A DNA stretch of 64,000 bases from Thiomicrorhabdus sp. Milos-T2 (lineage in GTDB: Bacteria; Pseudomonadota; Gammaproteobacteria; Thiomicrospirales; Thiomicrospiraceae). The stretch is taken from the NCBI RefSeq assembly GCF_000702325.1, contig NZ_KL370891.1, positions 704,917-768,916 of the forward strand, given 5' to 3'. This document shows positions 2,574-60,579 of this stretch, piece after piece. The translations under genes were made by a program, and so were the position numbers. Within the stretch, counting starts at the first letter, position 1, and each line of letters begins with the position of its first letter. A model generated the notes under the pieces. That model did not search any database, had not been told where the DNA came from, and saw nothing but the letters and a program-made list of their open reading frames with translations.

Positions 2574-2585
2574 ACCAGGCCTGGT
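2574..2585. repeat. palindrome ACCAGGCCTGGT, copy 1
   Basis: Intergenic. Palindromy extends to 18 bp (2571-2588, TTAACCAGGCCTGGTTAA). Member of the window-wide 13-copy family. Confidence 0.95.
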
Positions 2586-2747
2586 TAATTTCTTCATCAA
2601 ATCCTAGTTAAAATTATCGTGAACTTTATTATTAACGTGATAGGGTAAATGTTGAAAGAGTTTTGCATTCATTTTTTACAAAGCTCTCAATTAAACTAAA
2701 TCGGTAATATTCAGCTCAGTTAAGTTAAGTTCGGCAAGGTTAAAGCA

Positions 2748-3542
2748 ATGAAAATACTCGCAATACAATGGAATCCCGTTTGGCAAAACTCTGCAGAGAA
2801 CCTAATAAAATTAGAACAAACCTTTGCAGAACAGTTAACGGATAAAACTAAAAATATCGACTTAGTTGTTTTGCCCGAAACCTTTCACTCAGGTTTTTCT
2901 ATGCAAGCCGAGCAGTATGCTGAATCGGTTGATGGCAAGGTGAGTCAGAAGTTATCAGAATTAGCTAAAACCTATTCAGTTGCGATTATTGCCGGTGTAG
3001 CGCAAAAGCAGGTTAGAGCAGGTTGCCATGGTCAACAAGCTCGGTTTTATAATCGTGCTTTAGCCTTTAATCGTGAAGGTCAGCAAATTGGAAGTTACAG
3101 CAAACAAAAACTGTTTAGCTACGCCAATGAACAACACTCCTTTATTGCAGGACATCAGCCCGAAATTGTTCAGCTAAATGGCGAACCCTTTGCCCTATTT
3201 ATTTGTTATGACCTGAGATTTCCCGAACTCTTTAGGGAGGTTGCTTCGCAGGTAAAAGGCATGATCATTATTGCCAATTGGCCACAATCTCGTCAACAGC
3301 ATTGGGAGACATTACTAAAAGCTAGAGCCATTGAAAACCAATGTTTCGTCATTGGGGTCAATCGCATAGGGCAAGATGGTAATGGCTTAAATTACATTGG
3401 CGGTTCTAGTGTGATTTCCCCACTGGGAGAAGTCTTAGCCTATGCAAATGAGCAGCAAGAATGGCTTAATGTAGAGATAGATTTGCAGCAAGTTAATGAG
3501 GTTAGGAAGCAATTTCCTTTTTTAGAAGATTGTCATATTTAG
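2748..3542 (+). CDS. carbon-nitrogen hydrolase, omega-amidase type (YafV/Nit2-like)
   Basis: A 264-residue nitrilase-superfamily enzyme, single-domain and cytoplasmic. The Glu-Lys-Cys catalytic triad is visible: E44 in LPETFHSGFS, K119 in YSKQKLFS and C153 in ICYDLRFPELFR. Length and motif spacing fit omega-amidases (YafV, Nit2), which hydrolyse alpha-ketoglutaramate and alpha-ketosuccinamate and so salvage transamination by-products. The start ATG follows an AAGGTTAAAGCA stretch that can serve as ribosome binding site. Convergent with the next gene, with a 22-bp palindrome between the two stops. Other amidase substrates are possible; the superfamily call is secure. Confidence 0.88.
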   Translation: MKILAIQWNPVWQNSAENLIKLEQTFAEQLTDKTKNIDLVVLPETFHSGFSMQAEQYAESVDGKVSQKLSELAKTYSVAIIAGVAQKQVRAGCHGQQARFYNRALAFNREGQQIGSYSKQKLFSYANEQHSFIAGHQPEIVQLNGEPFALFICYDLRFPELFREVASQVKGMIIIANWPQSRQQHWETLLKARAIENQCFVIGVNRIGQDGNGLNYIGGSSVISPLGEVLAYANEQQEWLNVEIDLQQVNEVRKQFPFLEDCHI

Positions 3543-3552
3543 TGGCAAAACA

Positions 3553-3564
3553 ACCAGGCCTGGT
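3553..3564. repeat. palindrome ACCAGGCCTGGT, copy 2
   Basis: Lies between two convergent genes. Palindromy extends over 22 bp (3548-3569), ending in GTTT/AAAC, so as RNA it would form a 9-bp stem with a GGCC loop and might also act as a bidirectional terminator. Confidence 0.95.
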
Positions 3565-3578
3565 TGTTTGCTTAGATT

Positions 3579-4127
3579 TTAATTGGCAATTTGTTTAGTG
3601 TTATTTAATGCTTTTAAGGCGTTATTAATTGATTCTTTTAAATAATGCGGATAAAAGTCATAAGCGCCAGAAAGCAGTTGGTCAGTAATGACATCTCCTT
3701 CACCATTAACAAAAATCACCACGGGCAAACTGGTTAGATTGTATAAATCTTTAAACTCCTCATTTGGCATTGCATCGCCATAAAAATCAATGGTAGTTTC
3801 ATCTACGTTGACATTAATCTCAGTCATCAAAACAAAACCCTCTAAATCCCCCGAATACAACATCGGAACAATCGCTTCATCTTTTAAATCTTGGGTAGAC
3901 TTTAAGCCCTTGGCTGAAAACAAAATGGCAATGGGAATATTTTGTTTCAGTGCCTTTTTACCCAATTCTTGCAAATTAGTCGCAATTGGCAAAACGCTAG
4001 TATCGCTATAAGCATTAACTGAAAACAAACTCGAAAACAAAAGCGAAATTACCACACCCCGAAAGAGGGTATAAAGGCCTGGTAAAATCAAAATTGATTT
4101 AAAAGCCCGTTCTTTAAATATATTCAT
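3579..4127 (-). CDS. exported thioredoxin-fold protein lacking the CxxC active site
   Basis: A 182-residue protein with an N-terminal hydrophobic segment (about residues 10-42), so exported or membrane-anchored. The rest resembles thioredoxin-like proteins of sulfur oxidisers (SoxW-like): a beta strand IAILFSAKG where thioredoxins carry WCxxC, and the cis-proline segment TSLPVVIFVNGEGD. The two active cysteines are absent, so it cannot be a dithiol oxidoreductase. Possible roles are a chaperone or a scaffold; I do not know its function. It stands alone, convergent with the nitrilase gene and followed upstream by a palindrome copy at 4184. Confidence 0.7.
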   Translation of the reverse strand: MNIFKERAFKSILILPGLYTLFRGVVISLLFSSLFSVNAYSDTSVLPIATNLQELGKKALKQNIPIAILFSAKGLKSTQDLKDEAIVPMLYSGDLEGFVLMTEINVNVDETTIDFYGDAMPNEEFKDLYNLTSLPVVIFVNGEGDVITDQLLSGAYDFYPHYLKESINNALKALNNTKQIAN

Positions 4128-4183
4128 TATGTTAATCCTTGAGGTTAGAAAAAACCAAATACCATCATGTGAATAATTATATT

Positions 4184-4195
4184 ACCAGGCCTGGT
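4184..4195. repeat. palindrome ACCAGGCCTGGT, copy 3
   Basis: Intergenic, 57 bp upstream of the thioredoxin-fold gene. Palindromy extends to 16 bp (4182-4197). Confidence 0.95.
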
Positions 4196-4388
4196 AAAAC
4201 AGAAAATGACTTTATCGATAGAAATAATTTACACAGAAACGTTAACTGTTAATGGCTAAGCAGGGAATCGAAAGGCTGGAATAGAAAAGCGGGAAATAGA
4301 AAATCGAGAAACAGACAATGCTAAGTTAAGCTTTCTAAGTTAAGGAGAGATGAATTAAGAGGTTTAGATTAAGTCTGAAATTCTAAGT

Positions 4389-4427
4389 CTAAAACTAGGC
4401 AACGCAAATTGCTTTGCCTAGTTTTAG
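4389..4427 (-). terminator. strong hairpin downstream of fklB, probable terminator
   Basis: Perfect 14-bp inverted repeat CTAAAACTAGGCAA (4389-4402) and TTGCCTAGTTTTAG (4414-4427) with an 11-nt loop. It lies 50 bp beyond the fklB stop. The terminal U-rich tract is inside the stem, so it could work in both directions. Confidence 0.65.
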
Positions 4428-4477
4428 AAGTCGTGAGTTTTTAAAAAAACTTCGTGACTTCGTAGTTAATTATTTAA

Positions 4478-5098: not shown

Positions 5099-5413
5099 AC
5101 TAAAAAGTCCTGTTAATTAAAAAAAGGGCATCTTAGCACAAATCAACAAACGTTACGAAAAGGGCAGGTTAATAACAAATAATCTACAAACGTAATAGAC
5201 TACGTACTTAAACTAGTAAGGAAGATTTTTATAGTGTAATATTCACAAAAGTGCTTTTTAACAGCAGCAAAAAACTACGTTAATAAAGCTTAACCTGTCA
5301 AAAAAACAGGCGTAGACAAAACAAAGGCAAAACAGCTTAAAAGCACCCCAATACAAAATAACAAGGCAATAGTGGCTTACAATAAATGTTAGATATAGAA
5401 ATATGGGGAATAT
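5099..5413. other. intergenic region with attC-like left boundary
   Basis: A 315-bp gap upstream of the secreted-protein gene. It contains a small hairpin (CCTGT/ACAGG, about 5296-5309) and, at 5358-5394, TAACAAGGCAAT followed by GTTAGAT, resembling the core pair of an integron attC site. No gene is seen. Confidence 0.45.
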
Positions 5414-7961: not shown

Positions 7962-7963
7962 CC

Positions 7964-7975
7964 ACCAGGCCTGGT
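7964..7975. repeat. palindrome ACCAGGCCTGGT, copy 4
   Basis: Intergenic, directly beyond the inverted-repeat element and 43 bp past the stop of the minus-strand DUF6508 gene. Confidence 0.95.
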
Positions 7976-8440: not shown

Positions 8441-8559
8441 AGCTTGAGTTCTTGTGTATTTAGATTAATGAGAGTTAATGATGTGATTATAGTTTAAGCT
8501 TTTATACGTAGTTAGTCTTTTTTGAAATTAAACAACCAGGCCAGGTTAGTTTTTACTGG

Positions 8560-14130: not shown

Positions 14131-16752
14131 TTATTTTTTTAATAGAGTTTTAAGTTGATAAACCTTATCTAAGGCCATTCTGGGGGTTAACTCATTAGGG
14201 TCAATTTCTTGTAAAAGTTGTTCAACTTTTTCAAGTGCAGGGTTAGTCTCATAACTAAACATATCAAACTGCTGAGTGGGTTCAGCGGCTTGAGCGGCTT
14301 GATTTTCTTTATTAACGGGCGTTGCTGATTTTTGAGTTACGGCCTGGTTTTCCAGTTGGGTTAAATGTTGTTTAGCAAGCTGTATTACGTTTTGGGGCAC
14401 TCCGGCTAGAGCCGCCACTTGTAAGCCATAACTTTGAGATGCAGGGCCATCTTGAACTTGGTGTAAAAACACAATGCTGTCTTGATGTTCAATGGCGTCT
14501 AAATGCACATTAATGGTGTTGTTAAACTGTTCGTTTAAGGTGGTGAGTTCAAAATAGTGGGTTGCAAATAGGCAATAACCTTTTACATTTTGGGCAATGT
14601 GTTCTGCAATTGACCAGGCTAGTGCTAGTCCATCAAAGGTTGAGGTTCCTCGACCGACTTCATCCATTAAAATCAATGAGTTTTCTGTTGCATGATGCAA
14701 TATATTAGCGGTTTCAGTCATCTCTACCATAAAGGTTGAACGCCCAGATGTTAAGTCGTCAGAGGCGCCAATACGGGTAAATATTCGGTCAATGGGCCCG
14801 AGTTCGGCTTTATCAGCGGGGACGTAACTTCCCATAAATGCCATTAAGGTAATCAGTGCCGTTTGACGCATATAGGTGGATTTACCCCCCATGTTTGGTC
14901 CGGTAATTATGTGTAATTTACGCGTCTCATTAAATAAGGCATCGTTAGGAATAAACGGTTCGCTAGAGACGGCTTCAACCGTTAAATGGCGGCCTTGTTC
15001 AATGACCAGGCCTGGTTGTTCTGTTAGCACGGGACGCGTTAAATTTAAACGAACTGCTTGTTGTGCTAAGTTGACTAAAACATCTAATTCAGACAAGGCA
15101 CTGGCACAATTTTGTAGTTCAGCTAAATGTTGGTTTAGTTTTTCTAATAGGGCTTGGTAAAGCCATTTTTCTCGAGCAAGGGCTTTTTCGCCCGCACTTA
15201 AAATCTTGTCTTCAAAGGTTTTAAGTTCAGGAATAATATAGCGTTCTTGGCCTTTTAAGGTTTGACGACGAATATATTCGGCAGGAACATTGGCACTTTG
15301 TAGTTTACTGATTTCAATGTAGTAGCCATGCACACGGTTATAACCGACTTTTAAGGTGGATATACCTGTGCGTTCTTTTTCTCGTTGTTCAAGCGCTAAG
15401 AGATAATCGCCAGCTTCATTTTTTAAGTTACGTAACTCATCAAGTTCAGTATCGTAGCCTTCTGCAATGACTCCACCATCACGAATTAACATGGGAGGGT
15501 TATCAATAATTGCTCTGTCTAATAGCTCGGCCAATTCTGGAAAAGTACTCATTCTTTGAGCAAGCTCGTTAAGTTTTTTGGCTTGATTAAGGTTGGCAAG
15601 TTGGTTTTGAAAATCGGGTAAAGCGTTTAAGGTTCTGCCAAGATGTAGGCAGTCACGCGGTCGAGCGGAACCTAAAGCCACACGGCTTAAAATACGCTCC
15701 ATATCTCCCACTTGTTTTAAGGTGGTTCGCAGTTCATCGTCTTGATGGTTAGTTAAAATTGTTTCAATGGCATCTAAACGTTGGTTGATAATGGTGCGGT
15801 TTCGCAGCGGTTGGTTAAGCCAACGTTTAAGTAATCGGCTTCCCATTGCGGTAGCTGTATGGTCTAAAATTGCGGCTAGAGTATTGCTGGTTCCACCAGA
15901 TAAATTGGTATCAATTTCTAAATTACGACGACTAATGGCATCTAAAACTAAGGTGTCGGTGGTTTGATAGGTGTGCAGGCTAGAAATATAACTTAAATCA
16001 CTTTGAAGCATACTCTGCGCATAGTGCAAAATGACTCCTGCTGCGCTAATTGATGCCGAATGTGATTCACAGCCGTAAGCAACTAAATCTTGAGTTTGAA
16101 AATGAGATATCAAACGTTTACGACAGCTGGAAACATCAAAATGCCAGCTTGGGTATCTTACCAGGCCTGGTTGATTCAATATATTTTTAGGAAGTTGCTC
16201 TCTAAATAAATCGTCATCGGGCACTAATAGCTCAGAGGGTTTTAAGCGTTCGACTTCTGATAATAGTTGATTTAAAGAGGTCAATTGTGTGGTTTCAAAT
16301 CGGCCACTAGAAACCTCTAAATAGGCTAATCCATATTGATTGTCTTGCTGAGTGATTGCTACTAACAAGTTTTCATTTTTGTCTTCTAGCAGAGCTTCTT
16401 CTACTAGGGTGCCGGGAGTAATGACTCTGACCACTTTACGTTCAACCGGGCCTTTGCTTGTTCCTGGATCACCGACTTGTTCACAGATAGCGACCGATTC
16501 ACCGAGTTTAACCAGTTTTGCTAAATAGCCCTCAGCAGAATGGTGTGGAATCCCTGCCATTGGAATGGGCTCACCACCAGATTTACCACGAGCCGTAAGA
16601 GTGATTTCTAATAATTCTGAAGCTTTTTTGGCATCTTCAAAAAACAACTCATAAAAGTCACCCATGCGGTAAAACAAAAGATGGTTTTGATGTTGTTCTT
16701 TAATAGCCAAGAACTGTTGCATCATTGGGGTGTGTTTGATTGCTGAATTCAC
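14131..16752 (-). CDS. mutS: DNA mismatch repair protein MutS
   Basis: 873 residues, normal for MutS1. The mismatch-binding Phe-x-Glu motif is present near the N-terminus (GDFYELF, F33/E35). The ATPase domain has Walker [10 protein letters not shown] at about residues 615-623, [14 protein letters not shown] and ATHYFELT. It finds mismatches and recruits MutL. Convergent with the upstream diguanylate cyclase gene and divergent from the next one. Two exact copies of the ACCAGGCCTGGT palindrome lie within the coding sequence (15005-15016 and 16160-16171), both read as Pro-Gly-Leu-Val. Confidence 0.97.
15005..15016. repeat. palindrome ACCAGGCCTGGT, copy 5 (in mutS)
   Basis: Inside mutS, encoding Gln-Pro-Gly-Leu-Val in the frame of the gene. 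Confidence 0.95.
16160..16171. repeat. palindrome ACCAGGCCTGGT, copy 6 (in mutS)
   Basis: Second copy inside mutS, again encoding Gln-Pro-Gly-Leu-Val. Confidence 0.95.
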
Positions 16753-21780: not shown

Positions 21781-22410
21781 TTGAGGTATAAAGCCACCTT
21801 GAAAAATGCAGAAGAGTTTTTAGCTGAGTTAGCAATGAAATCAGGAGCGGATTTAGGTATTGAACCTAATCCGCATTCTGCTTTTGGAGAGAGTGATTCT
21901 TTATCTTCAGAAGTAAAAAATACCGCTGAACTCGCAAAAAAAATTGAAGCCAAAGCGGTTGCCTTATTGGCTATGCGTGAACATGGTGCTAAAGAGTTAA
22001 AACAGAAGTTATTAACTAAGTTTCCAGAAACCTCAGAGTTATTGGCAGAGTATGCAGAACAACCAGGCCTGGTTAAATTATTAGTGACTGATGTATTGAC
22101 GCTTTGCCAAGAAAACAATTGGCAAAGCGATGAGCGTTATATTGAACAAGCGGTTCGTAATTATGTTGATAAAGGCCATGGCCCGCAAAAAATTCGGCAG
22201 AAGTTACAGCAGAATTGTCATGATTCAGGTCAGATTTCAGCCGCATTAGATTGGGATGAATCGGATTGGGTTGAACTTGCTCAAGACGCTTTATACAAAA
22301 AGTATGGTAGCTGTAAAAAGCCAGCTGAACAAAAAGAACAAGCAAGGTGTATGCGTTTTTTGCAGAGCCGTGGCTTTTCTCAGAGTACGATTTGGAAATC
22401 GTTTCGTTAA
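21781..22410 (+). CDS. recX: regulatory protein RecX
   Basis: The C-terminal 150 residues show the RecX pattern: ALLAMREHGAKELKQKLLTKFP, DERYIEQAVRNYVDKGHGPQKIRQKL and KEQARCMRFLQSRGFSQSTIWK. RecX limits RecA filament growth. As drawn (TTG at 21781, 209 residues) it has an N-terminal extension of about 50 residues not typical of the family. TTG 21799 or ATG 21835 are other possible starts; no strong ribosome binding site decides. It follows recA by 29 bp, and a palindrome copy (22062-22073) lies in the gene. Confidence 0.88.
   Translation: MRYKATLKNAEEFLAELAMKSGADLGIEPNPHSAFGESDSLSSEVKNTAELAKKIEAKAVALLAMREHGAKELKQKLLTKFPETSELLAEYAEQPGLVKLLVTDVLTLCQENNWQSDERYIEQAVRNYVDKGHGPQKIRQKLQQNCHDSGQISAALDWDESDWVELAQDALYKKYGSCKKPAEQKEQARCMRFLQSRGFSQSTIWKSFR
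22062..22073. repeat. palindrome ACCAGGCCTGGT, copy 7 (in recX)
   Basis: Inside recX, read as Gln-Pro-Gly-Leu-Val; palindromy extends to 14 bp. Confidence 0.95.
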
Positions 22411-28552: not shown

Positions 28553-28564
28553 ACCAGGCCTGGT
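28553..28564. repeat. palindrome ACCAGGCCTGGT, copy 8
   Basis: Intergenic; palindromy extends to 16 bp (28551-28566). It lies 28 bp before a MITE-like repeat. Confidence 0.95.
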
Positions 28565-32104: not shown

Positions 32105-32590
32105 ATGTCTACTAATACTGTTTATATAGGATTGGGGAGTAATCTATCTAATCCTGTCGAACAATTAAATACAGCAATGAAATCCATTGCATTAATGCCT
32201 TTTACTCAACTGATTAAACGCTCCTCTTTTTACAGTTCGAAGCCATTAGGACCACAAGACCAGCCCGATTTTATTAATGCGGTTTGTGAAATTGAAACCG
32301 AATTGGAAGCGGAAGATTTACTAAAAAGATTGCAAACGATTGAATTAGAACAAGGGCGAATAAAAAAACGTCATTGGGGTGAGCGCTTAATTGATTTGGA
32401 TATTCTTCTTTTTGGAAACAATCTGATTAATAGCAAAGATTTAGTTGTGCCTCATTCACAAATTGCTTTGCGTGATTTTGTATTGATTCCATTGTCTGAA
32501 ATTGCACCAGGCCTGGTGATTCCTAATAAAGGTAAGGTTGAAAATCTAATTTCTACTCTTACAGATTCATATTTAATGCCTTTAGGATAG
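32105..32590 (+). CDS. folK: 2-amino-4-hydroxy-6-hydroxymethyldihydropteridine pyrophosphokinase
   Basis: 161 residues, normal HPPK length. YIGLGSNLSNPVEQL at the N-terminus, LGPQDQPDFINAVCEIET, RHWGERLIDLDILLFGN with the magnesium-binding aspartates, and VPHSQIALRDFVLIPLSEIAPG are family signatures. It transfers pyrophosphate from ATP to the pterin in folate synthesis. Palindrome copy 9 (32506-32517) is inside the gene. Confidence 0.96.
   Translation: MSTNTVYIGLGSNLSNPVEQLNTAMKSIALMPFTQLIKRSSFYSSKPLGPQDQPDFINAVCEIETELEAEDLLKRLQTIELEQGRIKKRHWGERLIDLDILLFGNNLINSKDLVVPHSQIALRDFVLIPLSEIAPGLVIPNKGKVENLISTLTDSYLMPLG
32506..32517. repeat. palindrome ACCAGGCCTGGT, copy 9 (in folK)
   Basis: Read as Ala-Pro-Gly-Leu-Val; palindromy extends to 14 bp. 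Confidence 0.95.
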
Positions 32591-32667: not shown

Positions 32668-33459
32668 ATGTCAATAACGCTTTTAAAACTAAAAAAGATG
32701 CATAACAGCAATGAAAAAATTGTGTGTTTAACAGCTTATGATGCAAGCTTTGCTTACTGGGTTGCGGAAGCTGGCGTTGAGGTGATTTTAGTTGGTGACT
32801 CTTTGGGGATGGTAGTGCAAGGTCATAAAACGACTTTACCCGTTACAATGGATGATATGGTTTATCACACTAAAATGGTTCAACAAGGTAATCACCAGGC
32901 CTGGTGTATTGCAGATTTACCTTTTATGTCAGATACCTCAATTGATATGACGCTAAGAAATGCTGCACGCTTAATGAAAGAGGGTGGGGCAAATATGGTA
33001 AAGCTAGAAGGAGGAGAGCGTGTAATCGAATCGGTTGCAGCGCTTTCTGCTTTAGGTGTTCCGGTTTGCGGGCATTTGGGTTTATTACCGCAGTCAGTTG
33101 AAAAATATGGCTATAAAGTTCAGGGTAAAGATTCTGAATCAGCACAGAAATTAATTTCAGATGCAATTGCTCTAGAAGCCGCGGGTGCAGAAATGCTTGT
33201 TTTAGAGTGCGTTCCCGCAGAACTGGCTAAAGAGGTGACTAAGCAATTAAGTATTCCTGTTATAGGGATTGGTTCGGGCAAAGATACCAGTGGTCAGGTT
33301 TTGGTTTTGCATGATATGTTAGGTATTACTGTTGGTCAGGCACCCAAGTTTGCAAAAAATTTTATGGCACAATCTAGCTCAATACAGCAAGCCTTAACCA
33401 CTTATGTCTCAGAGGTTAAAACCGAATTATTTCCTAGCGAAGCTCATCTGGTTGGTTAA
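32668..33459 (+). CDS. panB: 3-methyl-2-oxobutanoate hydroxymethyltransferase
   Basis: 263 residues. [34 protein letters not shown] with the metal-binding Asp, [15 protein letters not shown] and MLVLECVP with the catalytic Glu are present. It makes ketopantoate from ketoisovalerate using methylene-tetrahydrofolate, so it depends on the folate pathway of its neighbour folK. panC follows after a 420-bp gap filled by an inverted-repeat element. Palindrome copy 10 (32894-32905) lies in the gene and is read in a different frame from most other copies. Confidence 0.97.
32894..32905. repeat. palindrome ACCAGGCCTGGT, copy 10 (in panB)
   Basis: Read as His-Gln-Ala-Trp-Cys, i.e. in another frame than the Pro-Gly-Leu-Val copies. 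Palindromy extends to 14 bp. Confidence 0.95.
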
Positions 33460-34869: not shown

Positions 34870-35643
34870 ATGAGTTTTTCAACCTTAATAGGCCTTGTTG
34901 CCGGTATTACTATTGTTTTAATTGCAATGGCCATGGGTTCGTCTATCTCGATGTTTGTAAATCTACCAGGCCTGATGATTGTAGTGGGCGGGACTATTGC
35001 GGCAACGATGATTCGTTATTCAATGGCTGATAGTTTTAGAGCGATTGGGATGTCTTTTAGTGTGCTAAAGGTAAGCTCTGAAGTTAAAGATTTTCATGAA
35101 TTAGTGGATATTACTGAAGATTTACTGAGATTAGTTCGAGGTAAAGGTGTCCTTGCGATGGAGTCATATGAACTAAATAATCAGTTTTATAGTTCTGGCG
35201 TAAAGATGTTGGTTGATGGCTATTCACTGGAGATGGTGAAACAAACATTAAAAGAAAAAAATAAATTATTAGTAGAAAAAGCGGAAACCAGTGCCGGTGT
35301 ATTTCGTTCTATTGGTGACGCGGCACCCGCTTTTGGAATGATAGGAACCTTAGTGGGTTTGATTCAAATGCTTTCTAATTTAAGCGACCCAGCAGCGATT
35401 GGACCTTCGATGGCAGTTGCTATGTTAACCACTTTATATGGCGCAATGATAGCGAATCTTATGGCACTACCGATTGCCGATAAAATTGAGTCTTGGGCGC
35501 AAAATGAATCCGATCGTGAGTTGCTGATTATTGAAGCGATTGATAGTATTGGACAAGGGCATAATCCTGCCGTTATGCGTGATTTGTTAGCTCCTTATCT
35601 ACAAATAAATAGCAAGGCCAAAGCTGATGGCGAAGAAAGCTAA
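34870..35643 (+). CDS. motA: flagellar stator protein MotA/PomA
   Basis: 257 residues with four membrane helices (about 5-25, 32-50, 150-172, 182-202) and the cytoplasmic loop between helices 2 and 3 that contacts FliG. FRSIGDAAPAFGMIGTLVGLIQML is the conserved third helix with the key proline. Length and sequence resemble sodium-driven PomA as well as MotA of the short type, so the ion cannot be named. The stop overlaps the motB start by 17 bp. A near-copy of the palindrome (ACCAGGCCTGAT, 34965-34976) is in the gene. Confidence 0.9.
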   Translation: MSFSTLIGLVAGITIVLIAMAMGSSISMFVNLPGLMIVVGGTIAATMIRYSMADSFRAIGMSFSVLKVSSEVKDFHELVDITEDLLRLVRGKGVLAMESYELNNQFYSSGVKMLVDGYSLEMVKQTLKEKNKLLVEKAETSAGVFRSIGDAAPAFGMIGTLVGLIQMLSNLSDPAAIGPSMAVAMLTTLYGAMIANLMALPIADKIESWAQNESDRELLIIEAIDSIGQGHNPAVMRDLLAPYLQINSKAKADGEES

Positions 35644-37119: not shown

Positions 37120-39909
37120 TTACCCGGTATTTCGCATACCTGCCGCAATGGCATTAATACTATTGAGTAGTGGTGGTAGCCAAATATCACGTTCTTCTTC
37201 TGGCAGTTCAGTAGATTTGTAACGAGAAAGTAAGACCATTTGAATATTATTTAAAGGGACTAAATAAGGGTTACGTCTCTTCAAAGAGAGCGCAATGGTT
37301 GGTGTTTCAGCCATCAAATATTCGTTCCCTGTAATTTCTAAGATACGGTTTACAGAACGTTTATGTTCATCGGCAATCATGCTGTAAACTTGTTGAGCAA
37401 TTTCTTGATCTTGTCCAAGCTTGCTGTACTCTTTACCAATAGTTAAGTCTGTTTTATAAAGAGCCATTTGAATATTGCTGATTAAGGCTTTAAAGAACGG
37501 CCACTTTTCATGCATTTCTTTAAGTTGTCCATCACCATGTTGGTTAATCCAATTATCTAAAGCGTATCCTGTTCCTTGCCAAGCGGGGAAGGTCAGTCGA
37601 GCTTGTGCCCAACCAAATATCCATGGAATGGCACGAATTGATGATTTAGATAAGTTTCCTTTCTTACGGTGAGAAGGACGAGAACCAATGTTCAATAAAC
37701 CAATTTCTGTAACCGGAGTTGCTTCATAGAAAAACTCAAAGAAACCTTTAGTATTGTCAGTTAACTCGCGGAAATTATGTTCACCATCTTTAGCTAATTT
37801 AGCCATAGACTCTAAGAATTCTGGTTTGTCTTTCGTAATCGATTGTACAAGTCCGGTGCTCGCTTTCATTAGGCCTGTTACCCCTAGTGAAAGTTCATAC
37901 ATAGCCGTTTCAGAGTTGCTGTATTTGTATGATAAAACTTCACCTTGCTCTGTAAATTTGATTGAGCCACGCACAGTTCCGGTTGGTTGAGACAATATCG
38001 CAAAGTGAGTAGGACCTCCACCACGACCAACTGTTCCACCACGACCATGGAATAAGCGACAATCCACTTCATACGCATCGGCAAGTTTCATGATTTGTTG
38101 TTGGGCTTGATATAGGCTCCAAGCAGAAGAAAGGTTACCACCATCTTTAGCAGAATCCGAATAACCAAGCATAATTTCTTGTTGATTACCTGAAGCCTTT
38201 AGAAGCGCTTTGTAAGTGCTGTTTTCAAATAACGCTTGAGTGACAGGAACAATATGCTCTAAATCTTCAATGGTTTCAAATAGTGGAGCAATTTGAATGT
38301 CACAATAAGGTTCACCTGCATTGTAGCCTGCCAGGCCTGCTTGATGTGCTAAGAATAGTACTTCCATTACATGGCTAGCTTCGTGCGTCATTGATATAAC
38401 ATAGTTGTTAAACGCTTTTGGACTAATCTCTTTACGCATTTCACGGACAACATTAAAGACTTCTAAGACTTCTTTTGTCATCTTATTTAAAGCAAGGTGT
38501 TGGGTATCAATAATGGTGGCTGAAGAAACATGCTTTGCTAAAACTTCCAGTCTTTCTTGCTCACTTAAGCTAAAGTAATCAATATTAAGATGAGATAGTA
38601 AGTCAGCGACCGCATCACTGTGTACATTAGATTCTTGGCGAATATCTAAACGCATTAAGTAGAAACCAAATGTTTTGACTAAGCGAATTAAATCTTGAAG
38701 TTCTTCATTAGCGACATTTTCATCACCATGATTGCATAAAGAGTCATAAATGAGCTCTAAATCTTCAAGGAGCTCGTCTTCTGATTGATACGCAAAAGAG
38801 CCTTTATCAATAGGTGAATCATCTAACCAAGCTTCAATATAGTTAATATTTTGCTTCAAGCGGCCTTCCATGATGTAAAGAAAACGACGGTAAGGTTCAT
38901 CTTTAAAACGTTCTGAGCGCTTTTGAAAAACCTTTTTAATTAAGTCGGCATCTACAATCATTGAACGGTTGATGATTTCTTGAGAGATATTACAAAGATG
39001 ACGTGAGTGAGTAAGTTTTGAGCTCAGTTCAAAAATACGTTTTCTGTATTCGTAAATGGCCGCGCGACTTTGAAGTAGTAACGCTTTTACCGTTGTGTCA
39101 TGGGTTACAAATGGGTTTCCGTCACGGTCGCCACCTATCCAAGAGCCAAAAGTAAGGAAGTTTGGTGTTTCAATTTTATCATTAGGGTAGTGTTTAGCTA
39201 ATGCTCTTTCCATATAGTTGTAAACAACAGGAACCGCTTCAAACAGAGATTTTCGGAAGTAATAGATACCATTGCGTATTTCATCTTCAACGGTTGGTTT
39301 TTGACGACGAACTTCATCGGTTTGCCAAAGCACTTGAATTTGGGATTCTAGTTGCTGATATAAAGATTCTTTTAGGTATTCATTGTTGTAAGTATCTGCT
39401 TCATTTAATGTGCCAATATCTAAGAAGATTCTTCTTAGGTTATCCATGACTGAACGGCGTTTAGATTCTGTTGGATGGGCCGTAAATACCGGAATGTAGT
39501 GCAGTTTATTAAGTAGTTCTTGAACCTGGGAGGCATCTAAGCCTTGTTCTTTAAACTCTCCAACAGTGTTAAGCACTGAACCGGTCCATAGAGGACCATC
39601 GGATTTAAGTTGGCTTTGTCTTTCGTGATATTGGTGCTCTTCTTCCGCTAAGTTTACTAGGCTAAAGTATAAGTTGAATGCACGAATAATGAGGTTTAGT
39701 TCATCTGGATTACGAGATTCTATAAACGTCTTAAGTTCTTGACGAAGTTCTGGGTTATCTTCTTTTTGGAGAGAAATATAGCCTTTTCGAAGCTTTTCAA
39801 TTGCATTATAAGTTTCAACACCTACTTGTGAAGTGATGACTTTTCCTAGAATATTACCTAGAAGTTTGACTCGCGCTCTTAACTGCTTATCACGATTTTC
39901 AGCTGCCAT
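37120..39909 (-). CDS. ppc: phosphoenolpyruvate carboxylase
   Basis: 929 residues, typical length. The conserved His is in VFTAHPTESKRRSV near residue 160; FGSWIGGDRDGNPFVT, FHGRGGTVGRGGGPTH and the C-terminal tetrapeptide ending MRNTG are present. It forms oxaloacetate from PEP and bicarbonate and fills the citric acid cycle. In an autotroph it also supports carbon assimilation. Alone on its strand with its own terminator. It contains CCAGGCCTG (38331-38339), the centre of the palindrome. Confidence 0.97.
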   Translation of the reverse strand: MAAENRDKQLRARVKLLGNILGKVITSQVGVETYNAIEKLRKGYISLQKEDNPELRQELKTFIESRNPDELNLIIRAFNLYFSLVNLAEEEHQYHERQSQLKSDGPLWTGSVLNTVGEFKEQGLDASQVQELLNKLHYIPVFTAHPTESKRRSVMDNLRRIFLDIGTLNEADTYNNEYLKESLYQQLESQIQVLWQTDEVRRQKPTVEDEIRNGIYYFRKSLFEAVPVVYNYMERALAKHYPNDKIETPNFLTFGSWIGGDRDGNPFVTHDTTVKALLLQSRAAIYEYRKRIFELSSKLTHSRHLCNISQEIINRSMIVDADLIKKVFQKRSERFKDEPYRRFLYIMEGRLKQNINYIEAWLDDSPIDKGSFAYQSEDELLEDLELIYDSLCNHGDENVANEELQDLIRLVKTFGFYLMRLDIRQESNVHSDAVADLLSHLNIDYFSLSEQERLEVLAKHVSSATIIDTQHLALNKMTKEVLEVFNVVREMRKEISPKAFNNYVISMTHEASHVMEVLFLAHQAGLAGYNAGEPYCDIQIAPLFETIEDLEHIVPVTQALFENSTYKALLKASGNQQEIMLGYSDSAKDGGNLSSAWSLYQAQQQIMKLADAYEVDCRLFHGRGGTVGRGGGPTHFAILSQPTGTVRGSIKFTEQGEVLSYKYSNSETAMYELSLGVTGLMKASTGLVQSITKDKPEFLESMAKLAKDGEHNFRELTDNTKGFFEFFYEATPVTEIGLLNIGSRPSHRKKGNLSKSSIRAIPWIFGWAQARLTFPAWQGTGYALDNWINQHGDGQLKEMHEKWPFFKALISNIQMALYKTDLTIGKEYSKLGQDQEIAQQVYSMIADEHKRSVNRILEITGNEYLMAETPTIALSLKRRNPYLVPLNNIQMVLLSRYKSTELPEEERDIWLPPLLNSINAIAAGMRNTG

Positions 39910-42024: not shown

Positions 42025-43476
42025 ATGAAATTTATTGTTAAGTTGTTTCCTGAAATAATGATTAAGGGTGGTCCCCTAAAAAAACGCATGATTAATATGC
42101 TTTATGAAAACCTACGTACACTGCTTTTTAGAATTGATGACTCTATTTTAATTAAACGCTTTTGGGACAAAATTGAAGTTCAGGTTGATAAAAAAAATAT
42201 AGATGCTGTTCGTAAAGTATTGCAGCAAACTCCCGGTATTGAAAAGTATTTAGAAGTTGTCCAATATGAGTTAGGTGAAGATTTACAAGCCATTGCAGAA
42301 AAGGTTGCTGAGCATAAACTTGATCAAATTGAAGGAAAAACGTTTGTCGTTAGAGCAAAAAGAACTGGAGAACATTCGGTTACCTCTATTGAAATTGAGC
42401 GTTTTGTTGGGGGGTATTTATATGAGCATGGAAATCCAGCGGGGATTGATTTACATAATCCAGAAGTGAAAGTAGAGTTTGAATTAATTCAACAAATATT
42501 AAATGTCATCACTTTAAGACAACCAGGCCTGGGTGGATTCCCTATGGGTATTCAGGGAGATGTGCTTTCTCTTATGTCCGGTGGTTTTGATTCAACTGTA
42601 GCAAGTTACCTGACAATGAAACGTGGAATTAAAACCCATTTTATCTTTTTTAACCTTGGCGGAGCCGCGCATGAAGTAGGTGTGAAGCAAGTCGCGCTTT
42701 ATTTATGGGGGCAATTTGGTGCTTCCCATAGAGTTCAATTTGTTTCAGTGCCTTTTGAAGAGGTGGTGGAAGAAATATTTAAATCTACCCATGAAAGTTA
42801 TATGGGTGTGACGTTAAAACGTCTTATGATTATGGCGAGTGAAAAAGTGGCTGATGCCATGGGGATTGATGCCTTGGTAACTGGAGAGAGCGTGGCACAA
42901 GTAAGCAGTCAGACTTTGCGTAATCTGGCTGTTATTGACGAGGTTTCTGAAAAACTTATTTTACGACCTCTAGCAACGATGAATAAACCTGAAATAATTA
43001 AAATAGCCGATGATATTGGTACTAGAGAGTTTGCTGAAAATATGCCTGAGTATTGTGGTGTGATTTCTAAAAATCCGGTCACAAATGCCTCTTTTTCTAG
43101 AATGAAAAGGGAAGCTAAACGTTTTAATTATGATATTTTAAATAAAGCTGTTGAACAGGCCTTGACTATTCCGGTCGATAAAATTATTGAAGATGTCAAC
43201 AATACGGCACCTGTGGATGTGGTTAATGAACCTGGTGATGCTCTAGTGATTGACATTAGAAGAGAGTCAGAAGTTTCGTGTGCGCCATTAGATATTGAAA
43301 ATATCAATATTCCTTTTACAGGATTAAATAGGGCTTATAAAAAATTGGACCAATCAAAACAGTATGTTCTGTTTTGTGAAAAAGGTGTAATGAGTCAGTT
43401 GCATGCTCAGTATTTGAGAGATGCAGGTTATGGAAATGTTAGAGTGTATCGTCCTGTTTCGGGGCCCACCCATTAA
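42025..43476 (+). CDS. thiI: tRNA sulfurtransferase ThiI (with rhodanese domain)
   Basis: 483 residues. N-terminal ferredoxin-like and THUMP domains (about 1-165), PP-loop SGGFDST at about 189-195, and a C-terminal rhodanese domain with the persulfide cysteine in LFCEKGVMS (about 453). The second cysteine in MPEYCGVISKNP (about 343) is kept. It makes 4-thiouridine at tRNA position 8 and supplies sulfur for thiamine. Convergent with mltF with only 3 bp between. A near-copy of the palindrome (ACCAGGCCTGGG, 42522-42533) lies inside. Confidence 0.96.
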   Translation: MKFIVKLFPEIMIKGGPLKKRMINMLYENLRTLLFRIDDSILIKRFWDKIEVQVDKKNIDAVRKVLQQTPGIEKYLEVVQYELGEDLQAIAEKVAEHKLDQIEGKTFVVRAKRTGEHSVTSIEIERFVGGYLYEHGNPAGIDLHNPEVKVEFELIQQILNVITLRQPGLGGFPMGIQGDVLSLMSGGFDSTVASYLTMKRGIKTHFIFFNLGGAAHEVGVKQVALYLWGQFGASHRVQFVSVPFEEVVEEIFKSTHESYMGVTLKRLMIMASEKVADAMGIDALVTGESVAQVSSQTLRNLAVIDEVSEKLILRPLATMNKPEIIKIADDIGTREFAENMPEYCGVISKNPVTNASFSRMKREAKRFNYDILNKAVEQALTIPVDKIIEDVNNTAPVDVVNEPGDALVIDIRRESEVSCAPLDIENINIPFTGLNRAYKKLDQSKQYVLFCEKGVMSQLHAQYLRDAGYGNVRVYRPVSGPTH

Positions 43477-50337: not shown

Positions 50338-50385
50338 AAGCATTTATAGAATTACCAGGCCTGGTTGTTTTATAAATGCTTTTTT
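50338..50385 (+). terminator. terminator with the 12-bp palindrome in its loop
   Basis: Stem AAGCATTTATA (50338-50348) and TATAAATGCTT (50371-50381) followed by T run to 50385; the loop contains ACCAGGCCTGGT (50354-50365), which can extend the fold. It may terminate rlmB transcripts that pass the repeat. Confidence 0.7.
50354..50365. repeat. palindrome ACCAGGCCTGGT, copy 11
   Basis: In the loop of the hairpin at 50338-50385. Confidence 0.95.
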
Positions 50386-56711: not shown

Positions 56712-58154
56712 ATGAAAAAAACTCTTAATATTATTCTCGCTATGGTAATGACTTTGCCACTGGCAAGCTTTGCCTATGCTGAAGAATGGGATGAGTTTTT
56801 TCGTGATAGTGAGCCTAAAAGTTTAATTGATCTTGGAGTAGGTAAGTCTCAGCCTCAAAATAAAGTTGAAAGTCAGCAACGTTTACAGCAAGTCAGTCGT
56901 CTGGATCAAGAGATTTTGATCTTGCGAGCAGAAATGTCGAAACAAAATGGAGACTATAAGCAGGTTGCTCAATATTTAAAACAAATCAAAAAACAATTCA
57001 TTATTCCCGCTTTTCAAAAAAGGGTAGATCGATTAGAGGCTTATTTATCAAATCTACCCCAGTCTCCTTCATTATTGTCGGTCTTTTCATTTTCTAAAAA
57101 TATTGATTTTCCAATGCATGACCCTAGCGCAGTTGTCGCCATTGTTTTACCGACAAGTGGACGTTATGAACGTGTTGGCCTTGCATTACAAAATGCTTTG
57201 CAGAGCTCTCTTAATGAGGCGGGCTTTAAAGGAAAGCTAGTGGCTTTAGATTCTAATTTATATTCCACCGCATTTGATTTGTGGGAAATTCTTAAATACT
57301 ACGAACCAGATTTTATTTTTGGACCGATGCAAAAAAATAAAATTCAACAGTGGCAAGAATTAGAGACGGGAGTTGCGACGCTTTATTTTAATGAAACTGA
57401 ACATTTAGCCAGAAATGAATACAGTCTTGCACCAAGTAAAATAGCGGGTCTAGAACAAGTTTTTCAGGTTTTGAATCAAGCTCAGTATCAAAATATTATG
57501 GTTCTTAGAGGTAATGATGAAACTTCTGAAAACGTTGAGCGAGCATTTAACCAGGCCTGGTTAGAATTCAATCATTCTCAGGGATATATCTTACAAACCA
57601 TTAATAAAACGGTAGGGCAATCCATTGATATTGGGTTAAAGGTTCAAGAATCCAAAGATAGGCATAGATGGTTGCAGTCGGTTTTAAATCAAAAATTGGT
57701 CTTTAAGCCCAGAGTCCGTCAAGATATTGAAGCAATCATCTCTTTTGTACCTGAAACCAAAGCGATTCAAGTTGCACCGTATTTAGATTTCTTAAATTCT
57801 CCAGTAGATATAGCCCATATATGGTATCCAACCAAAACGCCCAATGCCAACTACTTAAAAGAAAATATTGATGCATGGTCACAAACATTTGTAATTTTAC
57901 CTATCTCATTAGGCGGCAGTTTAGAAAAACAACCGCCTAGCACTTCAAAAAATAAAAATGGCCTGTTTTATGCTTTAGGAAAGATGGCTATAGAAATTGT
58001 CAAAAATCCGAGTATCTCCTCTACGGTAGATACTTTGATCGATACTAGGTTTGGAACTTATGTTCGAGACGCTAATGGACAATTTTCCCTATTGCCAACT
58101 GTTTATTGGGCAGATAACGGCATCTTTGAAAAGTTTTCTATTCAACCAGAATAG
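56712..58154 (+). CDS. LpoA/LppC-like penicillin-binding protein activator
   Basis: 480 residues with a signal peptide (cleavage after SFAYA, about 23) but no lipobox. A short helical/TPR-like part (about 55-110) is followed by the LppC domain (about 135-475) with VVAIVLPTSGRYERVGLALQNAL and a periplasmic-binding-protein fold. LpoA stimulates PBP1A glycan cross-linking. It is shorter than E. coli LpoA and not a lipoprotein as drawn. Palindrome copy 12 (57550-57561) is in the gene. Divided by 40 bp from pepN on the same strand. Confidence 0.8.
   Translation: MKKTLNIILAMVMTLPLASFAYAEEWDEFFRDSEPKSLIDLGVGKSQPQNKVESQQRLQQVSRLDQEILILRAEMSKQNGDYKQVAQYLKQIKKQFIIPAFQKRVDRLEAYLSNLPQSPSLLSVFSFSKNIDFPMHDPSAVVAIVLPTSGRYERVGLALQNALQSSLNEAGFKGKLVALDSNLYSTAFDLWEILKYYEPDFIFGPMQKNKIQQWQELETGVATLYFNETEHLARNEYSLAPSKIAGLEQVFQVLNQAQYQNIMVLRGNDETSENVERAFNQAWLEFNHSQGYILQTINKTVGQSIDIGLKVQESKDRHRWLQSVLNQKLVFKPRVRQDIEAIISFVPETKAIQVAPYLDFLNSPVDIAHIWYPTKTPNANYLKENIDAWSQTFVILPISLGGSLEKQPPSTSKNKNGLFYALGKMAIEIVKNPSISSTVDTLIDTRFGTYVRDANGQFSLLPTVYWADNGIFEKFSIQPE
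57550..57561. repeat. palindrome ACCAGGCCTGGT, copy 12 (in LppC-like gene)
   Basis: Read as Asn-Gln-Ala-Trp-Leu, the same frame as in panB but different from mutS, recX and folK. Palindromy extends to 16 bp (57548-57563). Confidence 0.95.
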
Positions 58155-58300
58155 ATTTGAAGCTTTTTATTTCGTATCGCTCACAATGACTAAGATTGAG
58201 TTTTATTAGTTAATTTTTTCATTATTTATTTTTTACTTAAATTAAGTTTTTACATAATTTTATTTTTTAAATAATGAAAAAGTTGTTAAGGAATTAATGC

Positions 58301-59506
58301 GTGGCTGAGCAAGACGATACATTTGACCCTAATGATCTAGAAAGTATTGATGCTTTATTGGATGAGGCTGAGCTAGAGGCTGTCTCTGAAGAATCAGATG
58401 ATGACCCTGTTCTAGAATCACCAGAGCTTGATACAGTTGATGATTTACCTGATATGGAAGAGTTGGCCGATGAATCGACTGATCTTCCTGATGAAAGTAA
58501 TGAAAGTGATGACATTCTTGATTCATTAGAAGGTTTAGATTTAGAGGACGAGCCAGAGGTGGTTGATGTTTCTGAACCAAAGGAAGCAGAGGTTGTTGAA
58601 GAGCCTGAACCTGTTGTTGAAACAGATAATATCGTTCCGAATGTTGCTGAGAAAAAAGTAGCAGCGGTTGATAATACCGATGAATTTTTAGAAAAACGTG
58701 CAAGTGCTCAAGTAGCACAAAACTCCAATATGGCGGCAGAAGATATGGATTCTATAAAAAAACTTATCATAATTTTTGGTTCAGTTTTAAGTGTACTGGC
58801 TTTGTCTGGTATCGGAATTGGTTTATGGGGAGCATTAGCGGCTTCCTCTGCAGGAATGGATGAGGAAACCTTAACATTAATTGAATCTATAAAAGTCTCT
58901 TCTGAGGGTAATAATGAACGAATTCATGATGTTGATAAAACGGCTCAATCTGTAGAAAAGAAATTAGATGCAATTAACTTTCAAATAGAACAATTAGTTG
59001 CAGATATGGCGAAAACAAGTTCTGGAACGGATGGACATAATAATGAAATTATTGATCCTTTAGGACTTGGGGGGCATCAGGATTCCCACGCAACAGAGAA
59101 AACAGGAAATGATTCTCATAATGCACAGAATACTCATGCGGTGAAAACCACTCATGATTCACATGCAATGAATACTAATAGTCATACCCAGACAGCACCA
59201 CCTTCTTTACCAGCGGTGGCGGCGGAAAATCCAGAGTTAATGAAAAAAGTAACTTCGGTTAATTATAAATTAATCAAGGCACAACGCCGAATTGATGAAG
59301 TGAATGGTCGCGTTAAAAAAATTCAAGATCAATATAAAGCGTTAATGCAAAGTATTAAAACAGTTGAAAAGCAGGTTTTAGTTGAACAAGCTGAAAAGGC
59401 TAAAAAGCAAGCCGCGATGAAAGAAGCGAAAGAAAAAAATCGATATCAATATTCTGCTCCAGATGCGGCATTTTATGACCAGTCGGTTACGGATTCTTAT
59501 CCATAG
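58301..59506 (+). CDS. acidic single-span membrane protein with His-rich and coiled-coil parts
   Basis: 401 residues from the GTG at 58301 (TAAGGA at 58285-58290). Residues 1-110 are strongly acidic (Asp/Glu/Ser repeats); a single membrane helix lies at about 154-180; then a helical part, a His/Asn-rich stretch (about 245-296, with repeated DSHA) and a coiled-coil with a Lys/Ala tail (about 310-390). No family is recognised. The long acidic N-terminus would be cytoplasmic, the His-rich part periplasmic. Its position before flgP and the flagellar genes suggests, but does not prove, a motility or envelope role. Confidence 0.75.
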   Translation: MAEQDDTFDPNDLESIDALLDEAELEAVSEESDDDPVLESPELDTVDDLPDMEELADESTDLPDESNESDDILDSLEGLDLEDEPEVVDVSEPKEAEVVEEPEPVVETDNIVPNVAEKKVAAVDNTDEFLEKRASAQVAQNSNMAAEDMDSIKKLIIIFGSVLSVLALSGIGIGLWGALAASSAGMDEETLTLIESIKVSSEGNNERIHDVDKTAQSVEKKLDAINFQIEQLVADMAKTSSGTDGHNNEIIDPLGLGGHQDSHATEKTGNDSHNAQNTHAVKTTHDSHAMNTNSHTQTAPPSLPAVAAENPELMKKVTSVNYKLIKAQRRIDEVNGRVKKIQDQYKALMQSIKTVEKQVLVEQAEKAKKQAAMKEAKEKNRYQYSAPDAAFYDQSVTDSYP

Positions 59507-59528
59507 TTAAGATTTGTGAGTATTGCTT

Positions 59529-59774
59529 ATGAAATTGAAATGGTTGTTATTAATGCTTGCTTTGCAAGTGGGGTTGAGTGCTTGTAGCTCAAAACCTGTA
59601 AAAATAGCTAAAAATGCATTGATGAATGTTGGTGAAGATGTAGGTTTGATTGAGAAATCAGTTATGAAAGTTCCCGATTATTATTCAACCAAGCCGTTAC
59701 CTAAAAAATATGAACCCGGTGTTAAGTACAATTTAAAAGACTTAAATTGTTCTGAGACACAAAATAAATGTTAA
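59529..59774 (+). CDS. small lipoprotein of unknown function
   Basis: 81 residues from the ATG at 59529 (a TTG six bases earlier is in frame). Signal peptide with lipobox LSAC (C about 19). The mature part of about 60 residues has no domain I know and ends with two cysteines (LNCSETQNKC). 22 bp after the acidic membrane protein, so likely co-transcribed. Confidence 0.75.
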   Translation: MKLKWLLLMLALQVGLSACSSKPVKIAKNALMNVGEDVGLIEKSVMKVPDYYSTKPLPKKYEPGVKYNLKDLNCSETQNKC

Positions 59775-59784
59775 TCAATTTAAA

Positions 59785-59955
59785 GAGATCTTTGCATACG
59801 AGGTGGCTGAACGAATAAAAAATGGATAAAAACCAACTGATTGTTGTTTGAATACTTGCCTATAGCTTGCTATTAATAGCTATTAACTATGTTTTTCGAC
59901 TAAATCAGACAATTTTTACCAAATTTTTTTCGCGCCCATCTCGTGCAAAGGTCTC
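59785..59955 (+). mobile_element. MITE-like inverted repeat, copy 8 (divergent, 171 bp)
   Basis: Ends GAGATCTTTGCATACGAGG / CATCTCGTGCAAAGGTCTC. The middle is diverged (AATAGCTATTAAC in place of the 16-bp palindrome). It sits 38 bp upstream of flgP and so separates flgP from the preceding genes. Confidence 0.85.
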
Positions 59956-59993
59956 TAAAAAACAGTTTTGAGTAAATAGTGGAGTGTAAGACC

Positions 59994-60561
59994 ATGAAAA
60001 AGAAATTATTTGTAATTGCTGGAGTAGCAGCTAGCAGCTAGTAGCTTAGTGTTATCTGGGTGTATTCAGATTAAGTCAGATGAACCCGCGTCAGCGGCTA
60101 ATGTTCCTCAGCCAATAATGGTTGAGACTAAACCTGTTATGGCTGAAGCAACACCTGTTGCTCCCGCTCAAAAGCCAGAGCTGTTAAAAGTAACGGGTAT
60201 TGGTTATGGTGCTGAAAGTACTTTTGCTGCTTATACACCAGGTCAACGCCGTTTAATGGCTATTAGATCTTCCAAGTTAGATGCATACAGAGCTCTTGCC
60301 GAGCAGTTATATGGTATTAAAATTGATAGTAATACTTCTGTATCAACCTTAACCGCCAAAAATGATAGTTTTCGTGCTCGAGTCAATGCGGTTGTTAAGG
60401 GGGCTAGAGTAGTAAGCGTGACGCCTATGGCAGATAGAAACTACGAGACTGTTTTAGAAGTTTATGTAGACAAAAAATTCTTTGAACAAGCCTTTGTTTA
60501 TACCGCATCTAAAGCCTCTATAGTAGAACCTGAACAGGCTTATAAAGTAAGCTCTTATTAA
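59994..60561 (+). pseudogene. flgP: flgP-like LPP20 lipoprotein with a 7-bp tandem duplication (frameshift)
   Basis: The body (about 60049-60561) is an LPP20-domain lipoprotein like FlgP, needed for outer-membrane assembly around the flagellar motor in Vibrio and Campylobacter. The natural start is the ATG at 59994, with GGAGTG upstream, but the reading frame stops after 15 codons. The cause is a perfect tandem duplication of CAGCTAG (60028-60034 and 60035-60041). With one copy removed the gene is 186 codons with the signal peptide MKKKLFVIAGVAASSLVLSGC. This is either a disabled allele, a reversible switch, or a sequencing error. The GTG at 60049 would lack a signal peptide. Confidence 0.85.
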
Positions 60562-60567
60562 AGAGTT

Positions 60568-60579
60568 ACCAGGCCTGGT
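60568..60579. repeat. palindrome ACCAGGCCTGGT, copy 13
   Basis: Intergenic, 7 bp beyond the flgP stop. Confidence 0.95.

Follow-up and report, generated by a model that had tools for sequence, protein, structure and literature searches.

A repeated palindrome in Thiomicrorhabdus sp. Milos-T2

We analysed a stretch of 64,000 nucleotides from the sulfur-oxidising bacterium Thiomicrorhabdus sp. Milos-T2 (contig NZ_KL370891.1, positions 704,917 to 768,916), hereafter the window, along which the 12-bp palindrome ACCAGGCCTGGT recurs both between and within genes. The NCBI taxonomy places the genus Thiomicrorhabdus in the Piscirickettsiaceae, order Thiotrichales. An earlier reading made from the letters alone (the sequence-only reading) had listed 13 exact copies, and all of them are present at exactly those coordinates. 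The three near-copies that it listed differ from the 12-mer by one mismatch each, and the centre that it recognised in ppc belongs to a copy with two mismatches, which reads GCCAGGCCTGCT. In total, the window holds 17 matches with at most two mismatches, compared with a mean of 0.92 and a maximum of 3 in 100 dinucleotide shuffles.

The palindrome is abundant throughout the genome (G000; 2,655,367 bases on two contigs), which contains 498 exact copies, or one per 5.3 kb, and no copy of the reversed 12-mer used as control. A 464-kb sample, consisting of the window and 20 further stretches, contained 93 exact copies against 0.03 expected from trinucleotides. The same sample contained 44 sites with a single mismatch against 0.9 expected; in 39 of these the deviating base is one of the two that lie farthest from the dyad in a half. 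Copy density was the same on both contigs (20 in 100 kb of C2 and 73 in 364 kb of C1). The count is thus far from expectation and the copies are not confined to the window, the two outcomes that the sequence-only reading had regarded as fatal to its proposal, and the name highly iterated palindrome is deserved in its plain sense. Outside the family, 21 genomes contained 0-1 copies of the 12-mer each.

The conserved element is longer than the 12-mer. In the 464-kb sample it reads approximately AAANYW-ACCAGGCCTGGT-WRNTTT, with a purine as the second flanking base in 93% of the 186 flanks and a preference for T at flank positions 4 to 6 (0.66, 0.61, and 0.51). The dyad itself extends less clearly. 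The next flanking pair is complementary in 8 of the 13 copies of the window, as the sequence-only reading had counted, but the quarter that it took as expectation was too low, as flank composition alone yields 36%. Among the 93 copies of the sample the pair is complementary in 47, a modest excess. Isolated half-sites occurred near or below expectation in four genomes (G000, G033, G018, and G036), the largest excess being that of GGCCTGGT in G000 (14 against 11.2 expected). Hence, it is the whole two-fold element that is enriched as a unit in these genomes.

Placement and spacing of the copies

The position of the copies relative to genes was determined with crude gene calls based on the longest ORFs (open reading frames). 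In G000, 53 of the 93 copies lie in coding sequence, which makes up 86% of the bases, and these occupy all three reading frames (33, 18, and 2). Enrichment between genes was 2.0-4.7-fold in nine of ten genomes, and in eight of the ten the highest density was found between convergent genes (the exceptions being G036 and G035).

These placements bear on the proposal that the palindrome is a small mobile repeat, a transcription terminator or a by-product of coding. Of the measurable intergenic copies of G000, 22 of 35 lie within 50 bp past a gene end, which favours this proposal. However, the flanks of the G000 copies have almost nothing in common past about 6 bp, which means that they are not a dispersed repeat, and the copies within genes, in all three frames, also count against this group of explanations. 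The terminator reading was rejected because in 46 of the 93 copies the stem cannot be extended by a single pair. The group as a whole is contradicted by these data and by the conservation at mutS described below, and we regard it as extremely improbable.

Spacing along the chromosome differed between genomes. It resembled random placement in G000 (Kolmogorov-Smirnov (KS) p 0.97 for the first 100 listed sites of C1) and could not be distinguished from it in G018 (KS p 0.17, first listed places), and it was more even than random in G036 and G062 (KS p 0.010 and 0.006, first listed places). Regular spacing as a chromosome ruler was rejected, as it is not seen in the former two genomes, with some evenness in the latter two. 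The test in G036 left out one gap of 83 kb (C1 209049-292354) that is devoid of exact 12-mers, compared with one per 4.6 kb in the rest of the listed stretch. This gap contains gspG and may be an acquired island.

Dialects and patchy presence across the family

We counted the core CAGGCCTG in the 62 genomes of the family set, which are also those of the order set. It occurs in 236-1173 copies in 32 of them (the carriers), and the remaining 30 have 0-74 copies each. Counts of the reversed control ranged from 0 to 36 across all 62. The carriers comprise 15 of 32 genomes of Thiomicrorhabdus (g1), 7 of 11 of genus g6, all 9 of g5, and the single genome of g3. Genera g6 and g5 may be Hydrogenovibrio and Thiomicrospira, respectively.

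The sequence of the element changes between species. Twelve relatives were sampled besides G000, and dialects were read in ten carrier genomes, from samples of 100 kb (464 kb for G000 and 500 kb for G033). The ends of CAGGCCTG are ACC in G018, G036, and G033, ACC mixed with AGC in G035, AGC in G008, and mixed in G017 and G025, while G005 most often has AAC, which accounts for 47% of its sides at this position. G023 has a palindrome of its own, CCGGCCGG, in 1,217 copies (control 22). Elsewhere in the family CCGGCCGG occurs in 0-159 copies, in several genomes at low counts 2- to 5-fold above the reversed control (55 against 12 in G013, 84 against 35 in G031), an excess that cannot be told apart from an effect of composition. 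GGCC is the only centre common to all sampled dialects. No such palindrome was found in the samples of G003, G024, and G019.

A midpoint-rooted MutS tree was built for 50 of the 62 genomes. Being a carrier requires 6 changes on it, at least 5 of which are forced by well-supported branches, compared with an average of 16.3 for shuffled labels. The tree counts label changes and not their direction. Since the element is present in g5, g3, g6, and g1, an old origin followed by several losses is suggested as the simplest account, under the caveat that the root is a midpoint.

The sequence-only reading had likened the palindrome to HIP1 of Cyanobacteria and pointed to CCWGG and AGGCCT as possible methylation sites, a view that the dialects do not bear out. 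CCWGG is lost in AGCAGGCCTGCT, AACAGGCCTGTT, and CCGGCCGG, that is, in the AGC-, AAC-, and CCGGCCGG dialects, and AGGCCT is lost in CCGGCCGG. Repair of CCWGG by Dcm/Vsr was rejected because of these dialects. Neither a C5 (PF00145) nor an N4/N6 (PF01555) methylase was above the cut-off in 16 of the 32 carriers, G000 included, in searches that did not cover PF02086, which we take to be the accession of the MethyltransfD12 family. Methylases of the two searched classes were thus rejected for half of the carriers. HIP1 itself has been tied to methylases, and the MethyltransfD12 family is named for one such enzyme that acts on GGCC (PMC4390886, cited, like the other articles below, from excerpts).

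A HIP1-like sequence, made and kept by a DNA methyltransferase together with methylation-guided repair, would account for a palindrome in hundreds of copies within and between genes, as HIP1 is described in the excerpt (PMC4390886), and for the GGCC common to all sampled dialects. Yet HIP1 has the sequence GCGATCGC, whereas the element described here has another and longer sequence in several dialects. In half of the carriers no methylase of the two searched classes was above the cut-off, and the flanks and phased tracts described below would be left unexplained. We consider this explanation very unlikely.

Conservation of the copies between genomes

The window was aligned to syntenic stretches of four carrier relatives (Table 1); for the majority of intergenic sites no alignment was possible. 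The palindrome was perfect at 22 of 31 alignable sites (5/7, 5/8, 5/8, and 7/8 in the four relatives). Among the remaining aligned 12-mers the perfect fraction was 6.8-8.9%, and among those rich in GC it was 6.3-7.7%. None of the 3 alignable sites was perfect in the non-carrier G003.

The two sites in mutS were followed across the MutS tree. The first has the core in 26 of the 29 carriers and in none of the 21 other genomes, although several distant genomes align poorly here, so that part of this absence reflects a lack of comparable sequence. The second has it in 18 of the 29 carriers and likewise in none of the 21. The peptide at the first site is PGLV in most carriers and differs in the well-aligned others (AGVV, TGRV, PSLV, PNLV, and AGLV), AGLV being found in three carriers as well. 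Near-copies such as ACCCAGCCTGGT are kept at this site by some of the non-carriers. From the distribution of the core, these peptide differences, and the near-copies, conservation appears to act on the DNA more than on the protein. In G031 (C3 13377-15955), mutS was matched in several pieces, one of which contains five TGA codons.

Table 1. Copies of the palindrome in the window and their state in four carrier relatives (G009, G015, G021, and G030)
Feature	Position	Strand	Location	Aligned relatives
Exact 12-mer	2574..2585	.	Intergenic	
Exact 12-mer	3553..3564	.	Intergenic, convergent ORFs, directly past stop of CN_hydrolase gene (2748-3542)	Perfect in G015
Exact 12-mer	4184..4195	.	Intergenic	Perfect in G021
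Exact 12-mer	7964..7975	.	Intergenic, convergent ORFs either side	
One-mismatch copy	8535..8546	.	Intergenic	
Exact 12-mer	15005..15016	.	mutS, second site in coding order	Perfect in G009, G021, G030; 1 mismatch in G015
Exact 12-mer	16160..16171	.	mutS, first site in coding order; encodes PGLV	
Exact 12-mer	22062..22073	.	recX-like gene	Perfect in G009, G015, G021, G030
Exact 12-mer	28553..28564	.	Intergenic, convergent ORFs either side	
Exact 12-mer	32506..32517	.	folK	Perfect in G015, G030; 1 mismatch in G009, G021
Exact 12-mer	32894..32905	.	panB, other reading frame (HQAW)	Perfect in G021, G030; 1 mismatch in G009, G015
One-mismatch copy	34965..34976	.	MotA/TolQ/ExbB-family gene	
Two-mismatch copy, core intact	38330..38341	.	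ppc	
One-mismatch copy	42522..42533	.	thiI-like gene	
Exact 12-mer	50354..50365	.	Intergenic, convergent ORFs either side	
Exact 12-mer	57550..57561	.	LppC-like lipoprotein gene	Perfect in G009, G015, G030
Exact 12-mer	60568..60579	.	Directly past stop of ORF 60049-60561	Perfect in G009, G030

Phased A/T tracts around the palindrome

The flanks were most extensive in G033, the single member of its genus among the 62 genomes. Around its 73 core sites (500 kb), A/T content oscillates from 0.95 to 0.30 with a period of 10.5-10.75 bp to about 45 bp on both sides, forming four A/T tracts per side centred near 11, 22, 32, and 43 bp. A score for this phasing was passed on both sides by 29 of the 73 sites, on one side by 21, and on neither by 23. 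This score was derived from the pattern of G033 itself and is circular for this genome as a whole, so that only the comparison between coding and intergenic sites is informative: coding sites are phased too, with a mean side score of 1.62, against 2.39 for intergenic sites and 0.57 for random positions. Phasing is weak in G036 and amounts to the first tract at most in the other eight sampled genomes.

Such symmetric phasing of A/T content, with a period of about 10.5 bp, recalls the motif of Escherichia coli DNA gyrase. If the palindrome were a strong gyrase site, the arms of G/C phased at 10.75 bp and the enrichment of gyrase sites downstream of transcribed operons (PMC6379681, excerpt) would find parallels here, and GGCC satisfies the preference for +1G/+4C (PMC12324340, excerpt). 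With cleavage centred on the dyad, the element does not show the other two preferences, which the same excerpt gives as consistent across the enzymes (-4G/+8C and -2A/+6T), so that one of three core preferences is found, along with arms that are phased in G033 and weakly in G036. The arms are also placed differently, as the tracts of G033 first appear at about 11 bp and die away by about 45 bp, whereas those of E. coli are given at about 20-66. Moreover, the CAGGCCTG element is missing from 30 of the 62 family genomes, although gyrase is described as essential in nearly all bacteria (PMC12324340, excerpt). A gyrase site is in our judgement a highly improbable explanation.

A more serious competitor is a site for a two-fold-symmetric DNA-bending protein inside the cell, with a role in nucleoid organisation, segregation or replication and with up to about 90 bp wrapped. 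Consistent with it are the enrichment of whole palindromes only in the four genomes tested, the symmetric tracts of G033 at coding and intergenic sites alike, the high density between convergent genes in eight of ten genomes, and the more-even-than-random spacing in G036 and G062. Nevertheless, extended phasing is clear in G033 alone, the spacing in G000 and G018 cannot be distinguished from random placement, and one would hardly expect a system of chromosome maintenance to have several dialects and to be scattered patchily within a single genus. We consider this reading possible but rather unlikely. A related view, which we also hold to be unlikely, is that the element is a genome-wide mark and not an uptake tag, bound by an undescribed dimeric protein that would wrap up to about 90 bp symmetrically in a nucleosome-like manner. 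The sequence recognised would then change between species, and all sites would be rewritten or lost together. Should the element have no part in uptake, the phased 90-bp element of G033 would point to an undescribed DNA-wrapping protein.

A candidate self-recognition tag for DNA uptake

We propose that the palindrome serves as a tag by which cells recognise DNA of their own kind during natural uptake. It would work like the uptake signal sequence (USS) of Pasteurellaceae and the DNA uptake sequence (DUS) of Neisseriaceae but with two-fold symmetry. We give this reading a probability of roughly 0.55. It is favoured because it accounts best for the dialects, the patchy presence, the genome-wide spread within genes, and the USS-like tail. 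Among the roles that the sequence-only reading had offered (protein binding, methylation, nucleoid organisation, or uptake), uptake is likewise the best fit to the dialects, the patchy presence, and the USS-tail-like flank of two relatives.

From these observations we infer uptake by competent cells, a receptor, and bending of the DNA in the cell, and the process could run as follows. A surface receptor of the type IV pilus or competence machinery would read the palindromic core together with the flanking A/T tracts, either in dimeric form or by engaging the two halves simultaneously. The DNA would bend at its central GGCC and pass as a loop into the secretin pore, and ComEC would then import one strand. 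Preferential uptake and recombination of tagged DNA would cause tagged alleles to build up across the genome. A change in receptor specificity would move the tag to a new dialect, and loss of the preference or of uptake would let the tags decay.

The element shares several features with known uptake sequences. Its enrichment between genes in nine of ten genomes, the label changes forced on the MutS tree, the retention of sites at matching positions in relatives, and the occurrence of ComEC in 31 of 32 carriers also speak for this reading. Like the USS, it has hundreds of copies genome-wide and A/T tracts beside a core, and the two types of USS are matched here by dialects. The DUS also occurs in several dialects along the phylogeny, with a short common core and with some members lacking it (PMC3630211, excerpt), and here the dialects follow the phylogeny, are absent from some lineages, and have GGCC as their common centre. 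The extended USS are given as AAAGTGCGGTCAATTTT and AACAAGCGGTCAAATTT, with the eApl-USS ending in ...GCGGTCAAATTT and the eHin-USS in ...GCGGTCAATTTT (PMC12616744, excerpt). The USS tails GGTCAAATTT/GGTCAATTTT of this source resemble the half-sites of G036 and G033, of which the majority forms are GGTCAAATT and GGTTAATTTT. Read outward from the dyad, the majority or plurality half-sites are CCTGGTCAAATT in G036, CCTGGTTAATTTT in G033, and CCTGGTAANTTT in G000, and the phased tracts of G033 recall the A/T tracts of the USS as excerpted. The mean match at six USS tail positions was 3.20 in G036, 3.89 in G033, 2.94 in G018, and 2.86 in G000, compared with 1.59, 1.89, 1.82, and 2.04 at random places. 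Hence, the element of G036 and G033 resembles two right halves of the USS joined head to head. This likeness may be a convergence on bendable DNA.

The element also departs from both models. In the USS, the core is a one-sided 9-mer and two A/T regions follow downstream, whereas the core here is palindromic and flanked on both sides. The DUS forms one uninterrupted, non-palindromic motif, at most about 13 nt long, for which uptake was demonstrated by experiment, whereas the element described here is known from sequence. We thus grade it as working like an uptake sequence and not as a proven member of the class, since its palindromic unit is unlike the known USS and DUS.

Several observations weigh against uptake and are gathered here. 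The USS and DUS as printed are not palindromic (PMC5031613, excerpt), and the orientation that this gives to known uptake sequences is replaced here by two-fold symmetry. Given that half-sites are not enriched in the four genomes tested, a monomer bound to a single half does not readily suggest itself as reader. The tail match was scored in 4 of the 10 carriers and compared after both sequences had been seen. A/T-rich tails are easily matched, which weakens the likeness, and the USS-like GGT is missing in G005 (CCTGTT) and G008 (CCTGCT). The 12-mer is sparser than the nine-mers of Haemophilus influenzae, for which an excerpt gives 1,465. G035 shows no intergenic enrichment, and G023, counted among the 21 other genomes at mutS, has its own CCGGCCGG at neither mutS site. 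ComEC lies above the cut-off in 20 of 29 non-carriers (in two of these in pieces), so that absence of the tag does not track absence of ComEC. No receptor gene was found with the FimT/GspH profile (PF12019), which gave 3 weak matches in the 62 genomes, all in non-carriers. In the literature, searched mostly among non-subscription papers, there was no report of competence in these genera, and, judged by title, nothing relevant on uptake or natural transformation in Thiomicrospira or Hydrogenovibrio. The same literature held no paper on the 12-mer and, by title, none on an overrepresented CAGGCCTG, and for Thiomicrorhabdus and Hydrogenovibrio the word palindrome was met only in its CRISPR usage.

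ComEC was above the cut-off in 31 of the 32 carriers and also in G023. Only G006 departs from this, and its assembly, rated 82% complete, has a fragment where a contig ends. The distribution of ComEC is compatible with uptake and not strongly discriminating. In G020, of a lineage without the palindrome, ComEC is found in two pieces 37 kb apart (C1 50689-51309 and 88072-89325), and the best match in G031, which is rated 99% complete, reaches 22 bits.

Candidates for the reader were also considered. Known uptake sequences are recognised by a minor pilin of type IV pili (ComP, and by prediction ComN). The FimT/GspH profile was set aside as too weak a guide to the receptor. The pseudopilus of type II secretion, which the survey of pilins had suggested, was rejected as reader, as GspG is absent in 7 of the 32 carriers, four of which are rated 100% complete. 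The places of pilin genes in 10 genomes, compared by place and not by sequence, indicated no carrier-specific gene. Copies in mutS and in the recX-like gene of the window are of interest in view of the DUS-type bias towards genome maintenance, of which they are no measure.

Sequence-tagged DNA uptake had been described in two families as of a 2016 review (PMC5031613, excerpt). If uptake is the function, this would be a third family with dialects, absence from sister species, and a palindromic tag, and hence an independent case for how such specificity starts, shifts, and ends. The geometry would be informative too, since a two-fold tag suggests entry of the DNA in a symmetrically bent form. 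A search for the receptor can be tested directly against the natural series of dialects and absences.

Other repeats in the sampled genomes

Other repeats were encountered in the same samples. Arrays that look like CRISPR arrays are present in G019 (L096-L100) and G018 (L101-L105), with about 96 and 37 repeat copies in the respective 100-kb samples. In G000, a quasi-palindromic repeat of about 170 bp, whose inverted ends read AGACCTTTGCACGAGA / TCTCGTGCAAAGGTCT and whose centre reads GAATAGCTAGCTATTC, has the appearance of a miniature inverted-repeat transposable element. Six of its centres lie in the window and 30 in the 464-kb sample.

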